Positions 14,899 to 24,786 of a stretch of DNA of 37,426 nt are shown piece after piece. The stretch lies in assembly GCA_009782085.1 (NCBI GenBank), contig WQUN01000260.1:1-37426 (forward strand), written 5' to 3'. A model generated the notes under the pieces. The model ran no database searches. It saw only the letters and a list, made by a program, of their open reading frames with translations, and had not been told where the DNA came from. The stretch is from Bacillota bacterium. GTDB lineage: Bacteria; Bacillota; Clostridia; Lachnospirales; WQUN01. The translations under genes were made by a program, and so were the position numbers. Within the stretch, counting starts at the first letter, position 1, and each line of letters opens with the position of its first letter.

Positions 14899-15300
14899 TT
14901 ATTCCATATACTCCGCAATAAATTCCGTAACCGTCATAATTTCGGGTTTTTCGACTTCGACGCCGATGAAATCCTTATCACCGGTGATAAGTATGTCTAC
15001 ATTTTCCAGCATAGCGGTGTAAAGAACAGGGTAGTCACATTTATCTCTGATTTGAAATAATCCCGGCGGCGTGTTTTTTGGCGTATAGGCGAGCGAAAAG
15101 GACAACGTTGTCAGAAATTCGTCCAACTCGCCGGCCATTCCTGGGAATTTTACATCTACGACATCCCGCAGTTCTTCCACGACATAAGTTGATAGCACCA
15201 GTTCATGATACGAGACGATGTAATCTATCATATAGTAAATTTTTCCGCTTTGAAAAACAAAAGCCGAAACAAGGATATTGGTGTCAAGCATCACACGCAT
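14899..15300 (-). CDS. PIN-domain putative toxin ribonuclease
   Basis: 133 residues. The VapC-like PIN fold is indicated by MRVMLDTNILVSAF with catalytic Asp6, Glu43 in VVEEL, Asp89 in KCDYPVLYTA, and ITGDKDF with Asp108 and Asp110. It is the PIN subfamily annotated as putative toxin-antitoxin component. The ATG at 15,300 has GGGAG upstream and overlaps the AbrB gene by 17 bases, the standard antitoxin-toxin arrangement. A longer frame to 15,366 is not preferred because it would run deep into the antitoxin. Confidence 0.87.
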   Translation of the reverse strand: MRVMLDTNILVSAFVFQSGKIYYMIDYIVSYHELVLSTYVVEELRDVVDVKFPGMAGELDEFLTTLSFSLAYTPKNTPPGLFQIRDKCDYPVLYTAMLENVDILITGDKDFIGVEVEKPEIMTVTEFIAEYME

Positions 15301-15559
15301 TGCTTTTCTCCCATCTGCCGCGACGAACCTCCTTGACCATGGCCGCCACATCGTCGTCGGTTTCAAGGCCCAGCCTCTCGGCCTCTCCCTCGAACGCTTT
15401 GCCGATTTTTTCGAGGGCCATCATCGTCGGGTTGACTATGACCACGCCTTCCGGATTTTCGATGAACATCAGCTTATCCCCGACCTTGATCCCCAGGCGT
15501 TTGCGTATCGAAACGGGAATGGTGATCTGCCCGTTGCCGGTTACCTTCGCAAGTTCCAA
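15284..15559 (-). CDS. AbrB/MazE-type antitoxin
   Basis: 91 residues with a swapped-hairpin AbrB DNA-binding domain at the N-terminus: VTGNGQITIPVSIRKRLGIK (about residues 6-25) and GDKLMFIENPEGVVI. The acidic C-terminal half (about 46-85) should bind and neutralise the PIN toxin. It begins 21 bases after the stop of the DUF362 gene, so it may be read from the upstream metabolic operon as well as from its own autoregulated promoter. Confidence 0.88.
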   Translation of the reverse strand: MELAKVTGNGQITIPVSIRKRLGIKVGDKLMFIENPEGVVIVNPTMMALEKIGKAFEGEAERLGLETDDDVAAMVKEVRRGRWEKSNACDA

Positions 15560-15580: not shown

Positions 15581-16663
15581 TTATTCCACTTCCTCTATCC
15601 CGTACTCCTCCGACCCGACGCCGTATTCCGCGAGCTTCCGCAGCTGTACGAACGGGTCCTTCCCATGCAGCCGCTCGAACAGATGCCCCTGGCCGCTCAT
15701 GTCCGCGCCGGCCGGGACGCCGGCCATGATCAGGTTCTCCGTCTTTATCGCGTCGAGGCAGGCGCGCTCCAGGGCCACCATGTCCCGGGAGGACATGACG
15801 CCGATGTCCGGGACCAAAGACGGCGTGGACAGGCCCCAGCAGTCGCACAGGGCGGTTATGTCTGTCAGAAAGTTGATATAGTATACGTTTTCCGGCCCTA
15901 TGGCGTCCAAAACGGTCTTTGTGCAAAGGGCCATGCCGGTCTGGAAGTCCTCGTAGCGCGAATCGTCCATGACGACCGCGCCCGTCGGGCAGACCTTCAC
16001 GCAGTGCTGGCAGAACGTGCAGTTGTGGAAGAATATGTCGTATTTGCCTTCCTTGGTGAAGCTGTTCGCGTTGTGGTTGCAGCCCTTTATGCACTGCTCG
16101 CAGTGGGTGCAGAGATCTTCGTTCCATACGATGCCGCCCTCGAGATGGTGGATCTGCGTGCGCGTGCGGCCCGTCACGCAGCCCATCGCGATGTTCTTGC
16201 ACGCGCCGCCGTAGCCGCAGGCCCCGTGGCCCTTGACGTGGGAGAGGTCGACCATGAAGTCCGCGTCCTTGATATGCCCGGCCACGTCCACGTTCTTGAA
16301 CGTCTTGAAGTCCACGTCCACGGGGTAAAAGTATTTGTCGAACAGCCCGCAGACGTCCACGACGGGGCAGTCCAGATATTCCGCCGTATAGCCGCGGACG
16401 CGCGCGCCGGCCACGGTCACGTCCGTGACGAACGGCTTCGCGCCGTATTCCTTCAGCTTATCGACGAGCGTCTTCACGTACAGCGGGTGAATCGTCGTTA
16501 TGCCGAGGCCGACGCCCACGTGCATCTTTACCGCGACGTTCTTGTCCTTCACTTTTTCGGCGAGGCCCATGCGGTCGATCATCCGCCTGAAACGCGCGGG
16601 AAGGGTCTGGCCGGCGTCGTATTTGTCATAGCCGACGCCGGCGAAGAGGACTGAGTTTGTCAT
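15581..16663 (-). CDS. DUF362 protein with two 4Fe-4S clusters
   Basis: 360 residues. The DUF362 domain fills the N-terminal half, with VAVKMHVGVGLGITTIHP, SHVKGHGACGYGGACKNIAMGC (cysteines 149, 155 and 162), and the tail of the domain after the ferredoxin insert. Two 4Fe-4S motifs follow: C185-C188-C191-C195 and C215-C218-C221-C225. Known DUF362 proteins are thought to act in redox or cofactor chemistry, but few have a proven reaction. Last gene of a six-gene run, 22 bases after the URO-D-like gene, suggesting an electron-transfer role in that pathway. Confidence 0.88.
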   Translation of the reverse strand: MTNSVLFAGVGYDKYDAGQTLPARFRRMIDRMGLAEKVKDKNVAVKMHVGVGLGITTIHPLYVKTLVDKLKEYGAKPFVTDVTVAGARVRGYTAEYLDCPVVDVCGLFDKYFYPVDVDFKTFKNVDVAGHIKDADFMVDLSHVKGHGACGYGGACKNIAMGCVTGRTRTQIHHLEGGIVWNEDLCTHCEQCIKGCNHNANSFTKEGKYDIFFHNCTFCQHCVKVCPTGAVVMDDSRYEDFQTGMALCTKTVLDAIGPENVYYINFLTDITALCDCWGLSTPSLVPDIGVMSSRDMVALERACLDAIKTENLIMAGVPAGADMSGQGHLFERLHGKDPFVQLRKLAEYGVGSEEYGIEEVE

Positions 16664-16685
16664 GTATTAATCTCCTTTACAGATT

Positions 16686-17744
16686 TTACCGCCTGCTCAT
16701 CTTCTCATAAACCTCGTTATAATACAGCGCGTTCTCCACCGGCGTGTTCGCCGGGATGTGGTTCCCGACGGCCATAAAGAACCCCGGGCACTTCTTCCCT
16801 ATGTCCATGCACCTCTTGACCTCGCTGTATATGTCCTCCTTCGTCCCGCCGAGCAGGATCCTCGTGTCGGCGTTGCCGATGAACGAGTGCGTGCGGCCGT
16901 ACTTCTCCGCGACATAGGCCATGTCGGTCATCGGCTCCATGACGAAGCAGTTCGCGCCGCAGCGGGCTATGTCGTCGACGAACATCGTGTAGTTCCCGTC
17001 GGAGGTGTAGCAGATGATCTTCCCCTTTTGGCGCGGATAGTCGAACAGCCGCATATAGTTCGGGAACAGGAACTCCCTGTACCACGCGGGGTTCAGGAAC
17101 GGGCCCGACGTCCAGACGATGTCGTCGTGGAGCATGACGACGGGCGCGTCGCTCTCCGCCAGGGCGATGAAATACGGCTCCATCCACTTTGCGTACCGAT
17201 TGGCGAAATCCCCGAAGCGCCTGCCGTCGAGGCCCGCCGCGGCGAGGAGCGTCTCCCAGCCCAAAAGGTCGATCAGGCCGGACATGCAGGTTACGTATAC
17301 GCCGGTCATGTTGACCATATCCGGGTACGCTTCCGCCGCGTCCGCGTAATTTTGGTTGAACAGGGGTATCAGCGCGGCTTTGTCGTTCGGGCCGAAATTT
17401 TCCTCGAAATCAAAGCCGTACACGTCCCCGGGGTCGTTGAACAGCCTGCTCACGTTGTCGTCGTAGTCCGCGCCGCCGGCGGCGTAGGCCGCGTGGCCCA
17501 TGCGCGTCACCTTGTCCCCGAAAATCCGGCCGCTCACGCAGACGTTCCAGTTAAAATCGAAATTCCAAAGCCTCATCAGCTCTTTCGTGGCCTTCCCGCG
17601 CGTCTTTTCGTCGGAAAGCGCGGCGACGGGAACGCCCGCGGCCGCGCTTATCAGCTCCAGATGATAATTAAGCGAGTATTCCGTCCTGGGGACCCTCGGC
17701 GGCGTCTCCAGGCGCAGCGCGGCCATGCCGTGTTCAAGTGACAT
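16686..17744 (-). CDS. URO-D/MtaA superfamily protein, zinc motif lost
   Basis: 352 residues of the uroporphyrinogen decarboxylase fold (COG0407 type), which includes Zn-dependent corrinoid methyltransferases such as MtaA. In those enzymes zinc is bound by a His-x-Cys motif and a distant Cys. Here the matching segment reads CYTSDGN (245-251) and the C-terminal site reads FFMAVGNHIP (323-330), so both ligand sites are altered. It may have a different reaction or be a partner subunit. It is not a heme-pathway decarboxylase on context. It is 38 bases downstream of the Gfo/Idh/MocA gene and 22 bases upstream of DUF362. Confidence 0.82.
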   Translation of the reverse strand: MSLEHGMAALRLETPPRVPRTEYSLNYHLELISAAAGVPVAALSDEKTRGKATKELMRLWNFDFNWNVCVSGRIFGDKVTRMGHAAYAAGGADYDDNVSRLFNDPGDVYGFDFEENFGPNDKAALIPLFNQNYADAAEAYPDMVNMTGVYVTCMSGLIDLLGWETLLAAAGLDGRRFGDFANRYAKWMEPYFIALAESDAPVVMLHDDIVWTSGPFLNPAWYREFLFPNYMRLFDYPRQKGKIICYTSDGNYTMFVDDIARCGANCFVMEPMTDMAYVAEKYGRTHSFIGNADTRILLGGTKEDIYSEVKRCMDIGKKCPGFFMAVGNHIPANTPVENALYYNEVYEKMSRR

Positions 17745-17782
17745 ATCGCGACCTCCGCATTAATATAAATCCAACATTCGCA

Positions 17783-18955
17783 TTACGCCTTATAAAAGCT
17801 GTTGTTCACGTCCCCGTCCACCTCGCGGACGGTTTTTGTCGATTTGGAGCCGCGGATTTTTTCCTGCAGGGCCTCGTAATACTCGTCCTCGTCGAGCGGC
17901 AGGGTCACGGTCTTGTCCTTCCAGGAGGACAGGTACATCGCGTTGGCAATGGTCAGCCCGCGGATGCCCTCCTCGCCCTTGGCCACCAGCTCGCCCTCGC
18001 CGTTTATTTTGTCGACCATCGCCTGGAGGACGCCGGGGTGCTGAGTGTACGAGCCGTCCGTCTCGACCTCGGCCTTCTCCCACTCCGGCTGGCCGAACAT
18101 GGACCCGTTCGAGGCGTTGAACACGCTCTCCGGCGTTTTGAGGCGGTAAAAGGTCAGCTTGCCGTCCTCGTGGACGAGCTTGCCCTTGTCGCCGGCGATC
18201 TCAAACCTGTCCGTGCCGGGCGAGTCCGCCGTGGAGGTCACGAACACGCCCGTGGCGCCGTTGGCGTACTCCACATACGCGGTCACGTCGTTTTCGACCT
18301 CTATGTCGCGCCAGTGGCCCTCCTTGCAGAACGCCCTGACCTTCACCGGCATCCCGCATATCCACTGCCATATGTCCAGGTTGTGGGGGCACTGGTTCAT
18401 TATCACGCCGCCGCCCTCGCCGGCCCAGGTCGCGCGCCAGCCGCCCGAATCGTAATAAGCCTGGGAGCGGTACCAGGAGGTGATCAGCCAGTTGACCCGC
18501 TTAAGTTCGCCCAGCTCGCCGTTTTGGACCATCTCGCGCATTTTCCGGAACGCGCCGTAGGTCCTGACGTTGTACATGATCCCGAAGACCACCCCGTCGG
18601 CCTCAGCCTTCGCGGCGGCCTCGTTCATCTCCCTGACCTGCTTTGTGTAGACGCCCGCGGGCTTCTCGGTCATGACGTGGATCCCGCGCTTAAACGCCGC
18701 TATGGCCATCGGCGGGTGGGAATAGTGCGGGACGGCGATTATCAGCGCGTCGATCTCGCCGCCGTCGAGCATCGCGTCGAGGTTGTCGTAGGTTTTGAGC
18801 GCGGGCATCTCGCCCAAGGCCCAATCCAGCCGCTCCGGCCTGACGTCGCACACGGCCGTCAGCCGCGCCCCGCGGACAAGCCCGTTCCTGAGGTTGTTCA
18901 GGTGCCCGCCGCCCATGTTGCCGACGCCGACTATGCCGAACCTTACTTCCTTCAT
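17783..18955 (-). CDS. Gfo/Idh/MocA family NAD(P)-dependent oxidoreductase
   Basis: 390 residues. The Rossmann motif GVGNMG is at residues 10-15, IAVPHYSH near 73-80, the family Lys in TEKPAG (96-101), and GGGVIMNQCPHNLDIW supplies the catalytic-type His/Asp segment near residue 195. This family oxidises sugars and inositols at a ring hydroxyl, giving keto-sugars. The ATG at 18,955 follows AAGGGGGC. Longer upstream frames lack a start with a ribosome site. Third gene from the end of the six-gene run, 16 bases after the second URO-D-like gene. Confidence 0.92.
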   Translation of the reverse strand: MKEVRFGIVGVGNMGGGHLNNLRNGLVRGARLTAVCDVRPERLDWALGEMPALKTYDNLDAMLDGGEIDALIIAVPHYSHPPMAIAAFKRGIHVMTEKPAGVYTKQVREMNEAAAKAEADGVVFGIMYNVRTYGAFRKMREMVQNGELGELKRVNWLITSWYRSQAYYDSGGWRATWAGEGGGVIMNQCPHNLDIWQWICGMPVKVRAFCKEGHWRDIEVENDVTAYVEYANGATGVFVTSTADSPGTDRFEIAGDKGKLVHEDGKLTFYRLKTPESVFNASNGSMFGQPEWEKAEVETDGSYTQHPGVLQAMVDKINGEGELVAKGEEGIRGLTIANAMYLSSWKDKTVTLPLDEDEYYEALQEKIRGSKSTKTVREVDGDVNNSFYKA

Positions 18956-18971
18956 CGGAAAAGCCCCCTTA

Positions 18972-20000
18972 TTATTGAAATGCCCGGTAAAACGCCTCGA
19001 TGTTCTCAGCCGGCGTGTCCGGCTGAAACATGTGCGCCGGGCAGGCGATATATCCGGCGCCGAACGCCCCGGCATAGCGCCTGACTTCCCTTTTTACCTC
19101 CTCCGGCGTCCCGGACGGGAGGAGCCGCTGGACGTCGATCCCGCCGTGGAAACATATGCGGCCGCCGTAAGCCCTGAGCGCTTCCGGCGACATCTCCGGC
19201 CCGACCGGCTGGATCGGGTTCAGGATATCCACGCCGCAGCGTATGAACGACGGGATGAACCCGGCGACGTTCCCGCAGGAGTGGAACATCAGCCTCGCCC
19301 CCAGGCGGTGGACGGCCTCCGCCATCTCCGACAGGTAAGGCGCCACGAACTCCCCGAACATCCGGCCGGAGATCATCGGGCCCCTCTGGGAGCCCACGTC
19401 GGAGATCACCAGAAATATGTCTATCTGCCCGCCGGACGCCTCCCAGGCGCGCCTGTAATCCTCCAGGTAGAAGTCGGTGAACTTCCGGCTAAGCCAGTGG
19501 GTCCAGCCGGGGCGTTCGCACATGTCCAGGAGGTGGTTCTCCAGCCCGCGCACAAGCGACGGCCGCTGCCATATGTCCGCGAAGCCGTAGCGGACGGCGA
19601 GCTTTTTGTCCCTCGCCGCGCGGACCTGCTCCCGCAGGCGGCCGTAATCCATCGCGTCGTTGTCCGGCCAACGGAACGCCGCTATCTCCTCCAGGCTTTC
19701 CGCCCGGCAGAGCGCGCCGTACGTGTCCTCCCGCGCGTCTCCCCATTCGCCCCGGCGGAAAGTGTACCTCTCGCCCCACATGTTCTCGTAAAATCCGCCT
19801 CCTATATCTTTGGCCGGAGGCTCGACGGCCCGGAATTCCCGGATATCCACGCTGTTTTTGTCCAGGAAAAGGTCTATATCCCTGTGCCCGAGGTAGGCAA
19901 ACAGCCGGTTAAGCGCCGCGTCCTCGGCCCAGAAATCGAAGGGCGGCCTGTCCGTCCGCTCCCCGGAGAGCGCGGCCATCGTCCGCTCGAAGCCGGTCAT
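18972..20000 (-). CDS. URO-D/MtaA superfamily protein with zinc-type HxC motif
   Basis: 342 residues of the same superfamily as 16,686-17,744 but with the expected ligands: HSCGN (His240, Cys242) and Cys320 in YIACPAHMF. This His-x-Cys...Cys pattern is that of zinc methyltransferases that activate a thiol acceptor such as coenzyme M in MtaA-type enzymes. No corrinoid-binding protein or methanol-type MtaB is in the window, so the methyl donor is unknown. ATG at 20,000 follows GGGAGGGG. It lies 23 bases after the isomerase and 16 bases before the oxidoreductase. Confidence 0.85.
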   Translation of the reverse strand: MTGFERTMAALSGERTDRPPFDFWAEDAALNRLFAYLGHRDIDLFLDKNSVDIREFRAVEPPAKDIGGGFYENMWGERYTFRRGEWGDAREDTYGALCRAESLEEIAAFRWPDNDAMDYGRLREQVRAARDKKLAVRYGFADIWQRPSLVRGLENHLLDMCERPGWTHWLSRKFTDFYLEDYRRAWEASGGQIDIFLVISDVGSQRGPMISGRMFGEFVAPYLSEMAEAVHRLGARLMFHSCGNVAGFIPSFIRCGVDILNPIQPVGPEMSPEALRAYGGRICFHGGIDVQRLLPSGTPEEVKREVRRYAGAFGAGYIACPAHMFQPDTPAENIEAFYRAFQ

Positions 20001-20023
20001 GCGTGCGTCCCCTCCCTGATTTC

Positions 20024-20782
20024 TCAGTATTTCCTGTACTTTTCCATATTCCTCAGGCTGTTTTCCAGGCAGTCAAACGGGTTTTTCCCGTAACAGTCGT
20101 CCTGCTCCACGAAGGCCCACTTCACCTTTGCCTTTTCGCAGGCGGCGTAAATCCTCTCCCAGTTCAGGTTGCCCTCCAATATCTCGGCCATCCGACGCTC
20201 GCCGTTCACCATCGTCATGTCCTTGAAGTGGACGGCGTCCACCCGCCCGGCGAGCTTCTCCAGCCACTGCGCCGGGTCGCCGCCGCCGGCCTGCACCCAG
20301 TACACGTCCAGCGTGAAGCCCGCGTTTTCGCCCAGCGCGTCCGCCAGATGCTCCAGAAGCAGCCTGCCGCCGGATTTTTCAAACTCGAAGTCGTGGTTGT
20401 GGTACATGAACTTCATCCCGGCGCGCCCGATCTCCGCTATGGCCTCGGCGAACTCCTCCGCGAACCGCTCCGCGCCCTCTTTTGTCCGCCCGTACTCGCC
20501 CGGCAGGCTGCCGACCCCGATGTAATCCGCGCCCAGAACGCGGTGGTCCTCGATGACCTGAGCCGTCTCCAGGCGGATCCTGTCCTGGGCCGTGTGGGTT
20601 ATGGCGATCCTAAGGCCGCTGTCGTCGCAGATCCGGCGTATCCTCTTCGGCTGGATGGGCCCCGCGCCGGAAAGCTGCACCCACCTGTAGCCTATCTTGC
20701 CTATTTTCTCGGCCGTTTTCGCGAAATCGGCCTCCGTTTTGCAGAAATTCCTGACCGTGTACAACTGCGCCCCGTATTCCAT
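20024..20782 (-). CDS. TIM-barrel sugar phosphate isomerase/epimerase
   Basis: 252 residues of the xylose isomerase-like / AP endonuclease 2 fold. Candidate metal ligands are in the strand ends: YHNHDFEF (127-134), Asp159 in LDVYW, His185 in HFKD and Glu226 in VEQDD. It resembles IolE/hydroxypyruvate isomerase-type enzymes acting on keto sugars, a common partner of Gfo/Idh/MocA oxidoreductases. The ATG at 20,782 overlaps the stop of the flavin reductase (TGATG), so it is coupled. The longer frame that runs into the flavin reductase is not a real extension. Confidence 0.9.
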   Translation of the reverse strand: MEYGAQLYTVRNFCKTEADFAKTAEKIGKIGYRWVQLSGAGPIQPKRIRRICDDSGLRIAITHTAQDRIRLETAQVIEDHRVLGADYIGVGSLPGEYGRTKEGAERFAEEFAEAIAEIGRAGMKFMYHNHDFEFEKSGGRLLLEHLADALGENAGFTLDVYWVQAGGGDPAQWLEKLAGRVDAVHFKDMTMVNGERRMAEILEGNLNWERIYAACEKAKVKWAFVEQDDCYGKNPFDCLENSLRNMEKYRKY

Positions 20783-21276
20783 CAGGCGTCGCCTCCTTCG
20801 TATTCGCTTACAATCTCCCCGAAAAAAAGGATGTGATAATCCCCGTCGTAGAAAGTTTCCTTTATCCCGTTCCTGAGCCCGCCTTCCTCGAGCCGCCCGC
20901 GGTAATTCACGCGGCACTCGAGATACTTCCGGCAGCCGGCGACGACGCAGCCGTCCACGGCCTTCGCCGGGACGAACCCGACGACCTTGCTTTTGTCGAT
21001 GTCCGCGCCGGAGCGCGTGCCGCATACGACGAGCTCCTCCGCGAGGTCTCCCTCGTCCGGTATGCTGACGGTGAAGCAGTCCGCCTTCTCCATCAGCCCG
21101 TAAGTATACCTTTGCGGCCTGACGAGCGCGACGAAGTGCGGCTTGTCCCAGATCACGCCTATAAAGCCCCAGGAAATCGTCATGGTGTTCACCTTCCCGC
21201 CGCCCCTGACGGTCAGAAACGCGCCCTTCGCCGTAAAGCTGCTCATGGCCCGCGCCATATCGGCGTCAAAAAACAT
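20782..21276 (-). CDS. Flavin reductase (FMN-binding split barrel) family protein
   Basis: 164 residues of the flavin reductase-like family, with KVNTMTISWGFIGVIWDKP (residues 28-46), VRPQRYTYGLMEKADCFTVSI and a C-terminal HILFFGEIVSEY strand. Family members bind FMN and supply reduced flavin or take electrons. GGGGGC stands before the ATG and a promoter lies 30 bases further up. First gene of the six-gene run. Electrons could pass between this flavoprotein and the DUF362 iron-sulfur protein at the other end of the operon (inference). Confidence 0.88.
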   Translation of the reverse strand: MFFDADMARAMSSFTAKGAFLTVRGGGKVNTMTISWGFIGVIWDKPHFVALVRPQRYTYGLMEKADCFTVSIPDEGDLAEELVVCGTRSGADIDKSKVVGFVPAKAVDGCVVAGCRKYLECRVNYRGRLEEGGLRNGIKETFYDGDYHILFFGEIVSEYEGGDA

Positions 21277-21305
21277 GGTTACGCCCCCTTTTTATATATA
21301 TGAAG

Positions 21306-21334
21306 ATTATATACATTCAAATGGAGATATACAA
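21306..21334 (-). promoter_or_regulatory. Predicted promoter of the six-gene metabolic operon
   Basis: On the minus strand, a perfect TATAAT (21,311-21,306) lies 17 bases after TTGTAT (21,334-21,329). The leader to the flavin reductase start is short. The weak -35 suggests activator dependence, perhaps on an AraC-type regulator. Confidence 0.55.
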
Positions 21335-21389
21335 GCGGATTTGAAAGGTTTTACGGGGTTTGCCATACGGAAAGTACGGAAAGTACGGG

Positions 21390-21557
21390 GGGTGCGGCAA
21401 ATTTTCGTGGGATACGCCAAAATACAGTAGGGGACGCCGCCCTCGGCGTTCCGTTGTTTTGCGCCGCCCTCGGCGTCCCGCTGTTGTCGGCAGAATCGGG
21501 TAACGGGACGCCCAGGGGGGCGTACCCTGCGAATTTCCACGAAAATTTACCGCACCC
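21390..21557. repeat. Repeat E, 168-bp element with 21-bp inverted ends
   Basis: GGGTGCGGCAAATTTTCGTGG (21,390-21,410) is mirrored with one mismatch at 21,537-21,557, and the GGGATACGCC and GGCGTACCC stretches continue the mirror. The centre holds two direct copies of GCCGCCCTCGGCGT. No open frame of note. Confidence 0.75.
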
Positions 21558-21638
21558 AAGTATGGGCATATGCTTGACTGTTTTAATCTTGTATGGTAAT
21601 TTATTGCAGAAAAGTATAAGAAGCATAGCTTTCTATAT

Positions 21639-21906
21639 TAGACCTCCTCGGGAATTAGTTTCCGGCGTCTTTGCGGCCATTTTTCCGGATTGCCGCGTCA
21701 GCGCCTCCTATAGTCGTTTCGTTTGAAATTGAGCTTCAAACTTCGCGCGAAACGCCCCTGAACATCGGTCGTCTCGCGCTCGTTTTCAGCTCATTTCAAA
21801 TCGAAACGACTTTAGCAGACCTCCTGCGAGTATGCGTCGTCGGCGCTTCCTTGCACTCCAAAAAAATGTCGCGCAAATCCGCCGAAAACTAATTCCCGAG
21901 GAGGTC
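21639..21906. repeat. Repeat A1, 268-bp MITE-like palindrome
   Basis: The ends GACCTCCTCGGGAATTAG... and the mirror CTAATTCCCGAGGAGGTC form an inverted repeat of about 27 bases. Inside, GTCGTTTCGTTTGAAAT (about 21,714) is mirrored by ATTTCAAATCGAAACGAC (about 21,795), so the whole element can fold. No transposase is encoded. The size and ends are like a miniature inverted-repeat element. Confidence 0.85.
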
Positions 21907-21927
21907 AATGAATAACGCGCCGCATAT

Positions 21928-21993
21928 GTAGGGCGGGGGCTTGCCCCCGCCGCGCCATACGGGAGCTTTCGGCGGGGGCAAGCCCCCGCCCTT
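21928..21993. repeat. Repeat C2, two facing GC-rich hairpins
   Basis: GTAGGGCGGGGGCTTGCCCCCGCC and its mirrored copy GGCGGGGGCAAGCCCCCGCCC face each other across 20 bases. Each copy is itself a hairpin. Confidence 0.8.
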
Positions 21994-21995
21994 CT

Positions 21996-22050
21996 GCGGA
22001 AAACATTTGCCGGCGACGTGACAAAGGAGGCTAATGTTTTCGCACTCATA
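21996..22050. repeat. Repeat B3, short form of palindrome family B
   Basis: GCGGAAAACATTTGCCGGCG and CTAATGTTTTCGCACTC arms around a GACGTGACAAAGGAGG centre. The centre matches that of B1 (opposite strand), showing that short copies share a core different from the long ones. Confidence 0.8.
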
Positions 22051-22152
22051 CGAATCTCGATTAAAATCTTCACAGTCTGTCGCCGAGAACGCCGCTGAAG
22101 CGTTCGGCGTTTCGGCTCCGCCTGTGAAGTTTTAATCTGAGATTCGTATCAG
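22049..22152. repeat. B-like palindrome with different arms
   Basis: Outer arms ATACGAATCTCGATTAAAA and TTTTAATCTGAGATTCGTAT are inverted, then CTTCACAG/CTGTGAAG, and an inner stem GAACGCCGC-TGAAGC-GTTCGGCGTTTCGG. The inner part aligns with the B core but both sides of the stem carry matching changes. It abuts B3. Confidence 0.8.
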
Positions 22153-22191
22153 GTATAGCAAACGCTGATGCGGATGAGCCGATTTTTTTAT

Positions 22192-22304
22192 TAGACTTCT
22201 TCGGTAGTTGATTTTTCGTTGTCACCCTGAGCAAAGCGAAGGGTCTTAGAATCAAGATTCATCGCTTCGCTCAGAATGACAAGCGCCAGTTCCCGCAGAA
22301 ATCT
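22192..22304. repeat. Repeat A2 with D-type core
   Basis: Left end TTAGACTTCTTCGGTAGTTG and a degenerate mirror CAGTTCCCGCAGAAATCT at the right enclose a D palindrome (CACCCTGAGCAAAGCGAAG ... CTTCGCTCAGAATGAC). It lies directly ahead of the methyltransferase gene. Confidence 0.75.
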
Positions 22305-23160: not shown

Positions 23161-24786
23161 TTACCTTTTCCCCGTGGCGCCGGGCGCGGCGTACCTCGCG
23201 CGGTAATCCGCCGTGTCCGTTCCCTCGTACTGCCTGAAAAGGCTCCTGAAATGCCTGACGTCGCCGTAGCCCACCTTCACGGCGACCGCCTCGTCCGATT
23301 CGCCGGTTTCGCGGATGAGGCGCTTCGCCTCGTCCAGGCGCGTCTTTACGGCGAAGTCGAACAGGGTCTGGCCCTCGAGGCCGAGAAAGAGCTTCTGGAT
23401 GTGCTCCGGCGTCGAGCCGACGGCCAAAGCCAGCCTGGGCAACGAGAACGTCTCGAAATAGCGCTCCCTTATATAATCCTTGGCCAGATCCGTGAGCCGC
23501 CGGTCTATCTCCCCGCGCCGCCTTATGATCGCCGCGCAGAGCTTTTCGAGCGCGGTTTCGAGATATGCCCTCGCGGACGCCGGGGCGTCCAGCTCCAGGG
23601 CCTCCCTCGACGGGAAAAAGCCCGTGAAAGGCTCCCGCAGGCCGAGGTTTTGTTCGCTCAGGCGCAGGCTTATCGAAATGGACATGGCCGTCGCCATTTT
23701 GGAGCAGAATCTTTCCGGGAGAGGCCCGCAAGCCTCCAAAGCGCCGAATATCTCCGCCAGAAGGGCCGCGCAGCGTTCGAAATCCCCGGCGGCCGCGCAG
23801 CGTGTCAGCTCGTTTTCCCTTTGGAACGGGTATCTGTAGGAAACGATATTGTCAGGCTCCGCGAAGCCTATCGGGATAACGCAGTCCCCGCCCAGGCGGA
23901 ACCTGTGCCTTAGCGCGCCCTCGGCCTCCCTGTAGGAGACGCATATGTCCGCCGGGCTGGCGTATGAGCGGCCGACGCCGATCGTCACGCTGACCTTGGC
24001 CTTTTCGCGGATACGGTCTTTCAGGTCTTCCCAGAGCGCGAGCGTCTTTTCCGGATCCTCCGCCGCGCCCAGCAGCGCCGCCAGCCTGCCGTAACCGATC
24101 TGAACCGTCTCGAGCGGGCCGCCGCCGAACACCTCCGCGGCAATGCCGGCGATCCTGAATCCCAGCATGTGCTTTTCCCTCTCGTCCAGCGTCAGGACGA
24201 TCTTGTCGAACCGGTCTATGTCTATCAACGCGGCCGTGAAGCTCTTGCCGAAAGCCATGCCGAAATACCTGAAAGAGGCCCTTATCTCGCGCTCGCCGCC
24301 GGGCTCCCCGCCGAAAAGCCCCCGCAGGAACAAATCCCTGTAGCGGAACGTCTCGCCGGCGTATCTGCGTCCGAGATCGGTCTCGTTTTTTCTCTCCAGC
24401 TCGGCCTTTTTGAAATACGCCTCGGCGGTTTGCAGGCACCTCGTCAGGTCCGCCGGCTTCACCGGGCGGTACATGAAATCGACCGCGCCCCAGCCGCGGC
24501 CGGATTTGAGATATTCCGCGTCGCTATAGGCCCCGTAGAGGATGAAGCGCACTTCCGGAAACTTTTCGTGGATGTCCTGGAAAGCCCTGACGCTGTTCGG
24601 GCCGAAAAAGCGGACGTCCGCGATAATAAGGTCCGGCTTCAGTTCCCGGATGAACGGCACGATGTCCCGGCCGCCGTCCGTCGCCGCGCCGACCGTTTTC
24701 ATGTCCGGAAAGCCGCGCGCGATATGCGCCCGGAAATTTTTGATGTTTTCGATATCGGAACCCGCGAGAAGTATGTTTATCATCAT
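23161..24786 (-). CDS. Response regulator with AraC-type DNA-binding domain (YesN-like)
   Basis: 541 residues. The N-terminal receiver has IIADVRF with the phospho-acceptor candidate Asp57, and FMYRPVK with Lys110. Residues about 130-430 are a middle region of the YesN kind, partly GGDEF-like in look (VTIGVGRSYASPADICVSYREAEGALRH). The C-terminal AraC HTH pair covers about 440-535 (LPRLALAVGSTPEHIQKLF; VAVKVGYGDVRHFRSLFRQY). YesN proteins respond to a sensor kinase of the YesM type and usually control sugar uptake or catabolism. No kinase is in the window. It reads toward the six-gene operon and may control it. The ribosome site is weak. Confidence 0.9.
   Translation of the reverse strand: MMINILLAGSDIENIKNFRAHIARGFPDMKTVGAATDGGRDIVPFIRELKPDLIIADVRFFGPNSVRAFQDIHEKFPEVRFILYGAYSDAEYLKSGRGWGAVDFMYRPVKPADLTRCLQTAEAYFKKAELERKNETDLGRRYAGETFRYRDLFLRGLFGGEPGGEREIRASFRYFGMAFGKSFTAALIDIDRFDKIVLTLDEREKHMLGFRIAGIAAEVFGGGPLETVQIGYGRLAALLGAAEDPEKTLALWEDLKDRIREKAKVSVTIGVGRSYASPADICVSYREAEGALRHRFRLGGDCVIPIGFAEPDNIVSYRYPFQRENELTRCAAAGDFERCAALLAEIFGALEACGPLPERFCSKMATAMSISISLRLSEQNLGLREPFTGFFPSREALELDAPASARAYLETALEKLCAAIIRRRGEIDRRLTDLAKDYIRERYFETFSLPRLALAVGSTPEHIQKLFLGLEGQTLFDFAVKTRLDEAKRLIRETGESDEAVAVKVGYGDVRHFRSLFRQYEGTDTADYRARYAAPGATGKR

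Follow-up and report, generated by a model that had tools for sequence, protein, structure and literature searches.

Oxidation-elimination pathways for glycosides have been recognised only recently. In this 3-keto chemistry, a ketone at C3 of the sugar acidifies the C2-H, so that the substituent at C1 can leave. Here, we describe a six-gene operon on a contig of 37,426 nucleotides (WQUN01000260.1, hereafter the window) belonging to the 2.49 Mb genome of a Bacillota bacterium (265 contigs, 89% complete). It encodes, in this order, a flavin-reductase-like protein (Fred), a xylose-isomerase-like TIM-barrel protein (Iso), a protein of the uroporphyrinogen decarboxylase (URO-D) superfamily (UroA), a Gfo/Idh/MocA dehydrogenase (Gfo), a second URO-D protein (UroB) and a DUF362 protein. 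The closest described systems are the P2B11 glucuronide-3-dehydrogenase (PDB 8TDI), which belongs to an NAD-dependent 3-keto pathway of glycan breakdown, the corrinoid methyltransferase systems of the MtaA/MtbA type and Agrobacterium AtOGE (PDB 8BVK), a Mn-dependent O-glycoside β-eliminase with His132, the catalytic His134, Asp163, His189 and a weakly bound Glu233 in its site (PMC10628242).

Gfo consists of a Rossmann domain and a Gfo C-terminal domain (PF01408, PF02894 and PF22725), with an EKP motif at positions 97–99. Its closest solved relative is 8TDI, the match being nearly full-length (48% identity over 367 aligned positions, E=3.1e-99), and the next solved relative follows at 1.9e-37. 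Iso is closest to AtOGE, and although the identity is only 32%, both are TIM barrels and H128, H130, D159, H185 and E226 of Iso align with the metal-binding and catalytic residues of AtOGE, so that the His, His, Asp, His, Glu set is kept. As Gfo is nearest to 8TDI, and Iso to AtOGE with these site residues, C3 oxidation followed by β-elimination of the aglycone from an O-glycoside is the best-supported core function and, judged from sequence, a likely one, the substrate of Gfo being only predicted. The keto-sugar chemistry that the preliminary description of this DNA had proposed for the pair can thus be specified by homology. C3 oxidation is carried out by a flavoenzyme in Agrobacterium (PMC10628242), whereas it would fall to a Gfo/Idh/MocA protein here. 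In 23 of 35 Gfo loci of relatives, an Iso-family gene adjoins Gfo or sits one gene away, which makes the pair a common module; in the window, the uroA gene is interposed between the two. The Iso-Gfo core is known and common, and it is the two URO-D proteins that are the unusual part of the operon.

AlphaFold models of UroA and UroB had a pLDDT of 92 and 91, respectively. The best fold match of UroA was 4AY7, a methylcobalamin:coenzyme M methyltransferase (Z 28.1, root-mean-square deviation 3.0, 301 aligned residues), with true URO-Ds within 1 Z unit of that score. For UroB, the Z score was ∼25 against URO-Ds and 21.7 against 4AY7; Foldseek, however, ranked 4AY7 first. The H240-x-C242 motif is kept in UroA and ten homologues, and the third zinc ligand of MtaA-type enzymes, the distal Cys, aligns with His323 of UroA as read from the alignment. 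In UroB, the HxC zinc ligands are missing and T247-x-D249 stands in their place; its orthologues all carry xD, with T, S, C or L where the zinc-binding His would be, and D207, D208, D249 and H329 are invariant across 25 aligned orthologues. Loss of the zinc ligands is compatible with methyl transfer, because CdmB and Moorella MtvB, both URO-D-fold methyltransferases, are active without zinc (PMC13222342), as the UroB motif would suggest for UroB. MtvB, OdmB, VdmB and CdmB, which serve as methyltransferase I of O-demethylases and dehalogenases, are likened to UroB here at the level of the superfamily, and differ in that they are known to act on methoxylated aromatics and haloalkanes. Solved URO-D O-demethylases such as CdmB were absent from the fold lists, which is no argument against kinship. 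The link between URO-D proteins and methyl transfer that had been drawn earlier holds as a property of the family; for the UroA/UroB pair itself, methyl transfer is plausible, and we put it forward with reserve.

Orthologues of UroB (50–61% identity), for which alone a wider collection of genome contigs was additionally scanned, were found in ∼25 genomes, mainly Clostridia plus one Kiritimatiellales metagenome-assembled genome. The 96 genes flanking them, counted up to three per side and non-independent in that some loci share one genus, included 13 AraC-type regulators, seven sulfatases, three polysaccharide deacetylases, two fucosidases, two sugar-binding proteins and two PF01261 proteins. 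At three loci (L053, L055 and L056), the neighbouring sulfatases are of the SGSH type, and L056 has a sugar ABC transporter as well, which suggests sulfated-glycan contexts. A second URO-D gene commonly adjoins the uroB orthologue directly and carries HxC in seven of eight cases, where 50% of other URO-Ds have this motif (binomial p ∼0.035); that adjacent URO-D pairs mostly combine HxC and xD types is thus suggestive only. One locus from sheep colon, L072, shows the order URO-D, AraC-B12 fusion, corrinoid protein, UroB orthologue, URO-D, DUF2284 and RACo activase. It thereby comes close to the MtaA/MtbA-type systems, which resemble the window operon in the URO-D fold, the HxC of UroA and the adjacency of several URO-D proteins. 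The window operon differs from them in lacking genes for a corrinoid protein and an activase; hence the arrangement that defines a Type 1 mlp gene cluster (corrinoid protein and activase with at least two Mlps) is not found in it, whereas a comparable full set is present in L072. The fusion protein of L072 (7721-9277, plus strand) joins an AraC-family regulator to a complete corrinoid-binding unit (PF02607 and PF02310) upstream of the corrinoid protein and URO-D genes, and may act as a sensor of corrinoid methylation; nearly all other matches among those listed from 354 genomes span the corrinoid part alone.

Taken as a whole, the operon may cleave an O-glycoside by oxidation-elimination and also deal with a methyl group carried by the sugar or the aglycone, a proposal to which we give slightly less than even credence. 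By homology, Gfo would oxidise C3 of the glycosyl residue, probably of a glucuronide or hexoside, using NAD(P)+. Iso, to judge from its relatives and its conserved active-site residues, would then use a divalent metal to β-eliminate the aglycone from the 3-keto-glycoside, and the resulting 2-hydroxy-3-keto-glycal would be hydrated and reduced by enzymes encoded elsewhere. UroA and UroB may form a two-member methyl-transfer set, in which UroB, devoid of zinc ligands, would face the substrate and UroA, as the zinc-dependent HxC partner, would hand the methyl group on to an acceptor, perhaps a thiol, as MtaA-type enzymes do; the corrinoid protein serving as carrier would need to be supplied from outside the operon. 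Speculatively, Fred and the DUF362 protein, which has two CxxCxxCxxxC motifs (2[4Fe-4S]) at positions 185 and 215, could move electrons to re-reduce a cofactor or to dispose of NADH, although any role given to them is a guess. A more specific version, in which an anaerobic pathway for O-methylated glycans would combine 3-keto β-elimination with sugar O-methyl removal by the HxC/TxD URO-D pair, possibly without a dedicated corrinoid protein, is doubtful and in our view quite improbable; 4-O-methylglucuronate of plant xylan would possibly be an example of its substrate. To our knowledge, there is no established route for the anaerobic removal of methyl groups from sugars, and a literature search on URO-D proteins in sugar pathways and on anaerobic sugar demethylation found nothing relevant. 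The established demethylation of a sugar ether that we know of is that of 6-O-methylgalactose by a cytochrome P450 (PMC10033563).

Several results weigh against methyl handling by this operon. UroA scores 53.5 bits with the mtaA_cmuA model TIGR01463, for which the cut-off is 235.4, and both UroA and UroB stay far under the cut-off of every characterised methyltransferase model that they match. The preliminary description had noted that the operon holds no corrinoid protein, and this extends to the whole genome as assembled, in which neither PF02310 nor PF02607 was matched, no similarity to an MtaC-like protein was found and the L072 corrinoid domain had no relative at E 1e-25; since an 89% complete genome could hide one gene, this is no proof of absence, although such a match is present in 247 of the 354 genomes scanned from the order. 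PF00809 (pterin-binding MTII, MeTr) is likewise missing from the window genome and from three relatives. Furthermore, most of the other URO-D genes of this genome, which has 21 URO-D matches, are orphans beside housekeeping genes. Such expansions, with 21 URO-D proteins in the window genome and at least 28 in G034, a genome of the same family, are accompanied by no detectable corrinoid protein or by one. The window genome also encodes two RACo-type proteins, neither within the operon. One of them lies close to a gene for a CdhD-family corrinoid iron-sulfur protein at locus L181 (2005-7822, plus strand), although no PF00809 methyltransferase is detectable in this genome. An acetogenic methyl sink built on CdhD and RACo was considered at first and then dropped, since the genome lacks PF00809, a family that takes in the MeTr/AcsE fold.

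These data bear on an explanation that we consider unlikely but the strongest of the competitors, namely that UroA and UroB are corrinoid-free URO-D-fold enzymes acting on the sugar itself by hydration, isomerisation or decarboxylation of 3-keto intermediates. The disproportion between some 21 URO-D genes and the lack of any corrinoid protein or PF00809 match agrees with it, as does UroB, which has lost HxC and yet keeps its invariant Asp residues and His329; in addition, a few other URO-D genes of the genome adjoin genes for rhamnose isomerase, GH2, GH31 or aldo-keto reductase. However, UroA retains HxC and has its best fold match in MtaA/MtbA, and an orthologue of UroB lies within the complete corrinoid methyltransferase cluster of L072. 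Nor do we know of any URO-D-fold enzyme with such sugar chemistry.

The fixed six-gene pathway of the preliminary description was to be given up if related genomes never kept the six genes together. Separate searches with UroB, UroA, the DUF362 protein and Gfo over 392 genomes of the order, 38 of them from the family itself, found the six genes together in none, which also counts against our proposal, and the fixed pathway therefore fails. A plasmid search for the operon gave weak URO-D matches only. Smaller blocks do recur, namely Iso-Gfo, two URO-Ds, Gfo with two URO-Ds, and URO-D with a PF01261 protein, and thus leave room for a looser functional link. One other genus provides three genomes (L105, L110 and L111) in which the gene of the Gfo orthologue is followed, in one run, by those of another Gfo, of a URO-D with HxD and of a URO-D-like protein with HxC; this URO-D-like protein was detected by a custom profile only and missed by Pfam. 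Within G034, a Gfo and a URO-D gene overlap at locus L192, a PF01261 gene lies 18 bases ahead of a URO-D gene at L188, and the closest homologue of UroA (48%) is divergently placed beside a PF01261 gene at L093; in L075, a URO-D gene likewise adjoins a Gfo or PF01261 gene. A further point of weakness is that in G034 three adjacencies of URO-D with Gfo or PF01261 genes were seen where ∼1 would be expected by a rough estimate (p ∼0.07), and their excess over chance is not secure.

This distribution would suit a chance assembly, in which a common Iso-Gfo operon of a URO-D-rich genome gained two URO-D genes and the unrelated Fred and DUF362 genes and serves no single pathway. That no other searched genome has all six genes, that DUF362 orthologues (63–66%) adjoin unrelated genes, that the entire 25 kb region lies on one strand and that many URO-D genes of the genome are orphans are all in line with this. 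We nevertheless regard it as distinctly unlikely, as the spacing is very tight, the insertion lies within a conserved gene pair, and Gfo with two URO-D genes recurs in another genus.

Catabolism of inositol or another cyclitol by enzymes of the IolG/IolE kind, which had been suggested at first, is now disfavoured and highly improbable: IolG is the best NCBIfam match of Gfo (105 bits) and IolE the sole one of Iso (27.6 bits), but both are far under the cut-offs of 355 bits (IolG, TIGR04380) and 290 bits (IolE, TIGR04379), the solved structures nearest to the two proteins are those of a glucuronide dehydrogenase and an O-glycoside eliminase, and the operon contains no further iol gene. Cleavage of C-glycosides of the DgpA/DgpB-C (CarA/CarBC) kind is the least probable of all, since, despite two shared superfamilies and the presence of DgpA among the solved relatives of Gfo, DgpA matches at E=3e-13 as against 3e-99 for 8TDI, and such eliminases have two subunits (PMC10628242), of which the second has no gene in the operon.

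All six open reading frames are intact, Pfam agrees with each of the families named in the preliminary description (Table 1), and the same six genes were chosen by a gene caller based on codon usage. A purine-rich ribosome-binding site is present at each of the six starts, and no minus-strand terminator-like site was found within the six-gene run. The distances between the genes are −1, 23, 16, 38 and 22 bases, so that the tight spacing reported earlier (0 to 38) stands with a corrected range of −1 to 38. The case for a single unit based on strand and a good promoter is less firm: the strand is indeed shared, but as the window opens with 25 called genes (∼25 kb) that are all on the minus strand, this is a weak argument for an operon. 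The promoter is only fair, with a perfect −10 box and a −35 box that matches the consensus at three of six positions, for which reason it was unreported by the scanner. The 3′ border is open, as the AbrB/MazE-like and PIN genes continue on the same strand; this pair (14899-15559) is probably a separate toxin-antitoxin module, into which the operon possibly reads through. Upstream of the operon, the region 21350-22200 is without a convincing gene and contains repeated or inverted GC-rich stretches, e.g. GGGCGGGGGCTTGCCCCCGCC; an Rfam scan of the window gave zero matches. A 541-aa response regulator with GGDEF-like and AraC helix-turn-helix domains is encoded 1.9 kb upstream (23161-24786, minus strand) and is a possible regulator of the operon.

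Table 1. Coordinates in the window of the operon, its putative promoter and the genes on its 3′ side.
Feature	Position	Strand	Evidence
Putative promoter and leader	21277..21335	-	TTGTAT-17-TATAAT, then ribosome-binding site AAGGGGGCG; read directly
Fred, flavin-reductase-like FMN-binding domain protein, 164 aa	20782..21276	-	PF01613 E=1.4e-13
Iso, xylose-isomerase-like TIM barrel, AtOGE-like, 252 aa	20024..20782	-	PF01261 E=2e-14; 8BVK E=1.7e-26
UroA, URO-D superfamily, MtaA/MtbA-like, H240-x-C242 and H323, 342 aa	18972..20000	-	PF01208
Gfo, Gfo/Idh/MocA NAD(P)-dependent dehydrogenase, 390 aa	17783..18955	-	PF01408/PF02894/PF22725; 8TDI E=3.1e-99
UroB, URO-D superfamily, T247-x-D249 replacing HxC, 352 aa	16686..17744	-	PF01208
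DUF362 protein, 360 aa	15581..16663	-	PF04015 E=2e-37 and Fer4 families
AbrB/MazE-like antitoxin gene	15284..15559	-	PF04014 E=1.5e-10; 21 bases 3′ of the DUF362 gene
PIN-domain gene (PIN_3)	14899-15366	-	Pfam match; with the AbrB/MazE-like gene

If the URO-D proteins of this operon do demethylate a glycoside, they would provide bacteria of the gut and of termites with an oxygen-free route to methylated plant and animal glycans, and would give a first role to the large orphan URO-D families in Clostridia. As a conserved family, UroB lends itself to experimental tests.

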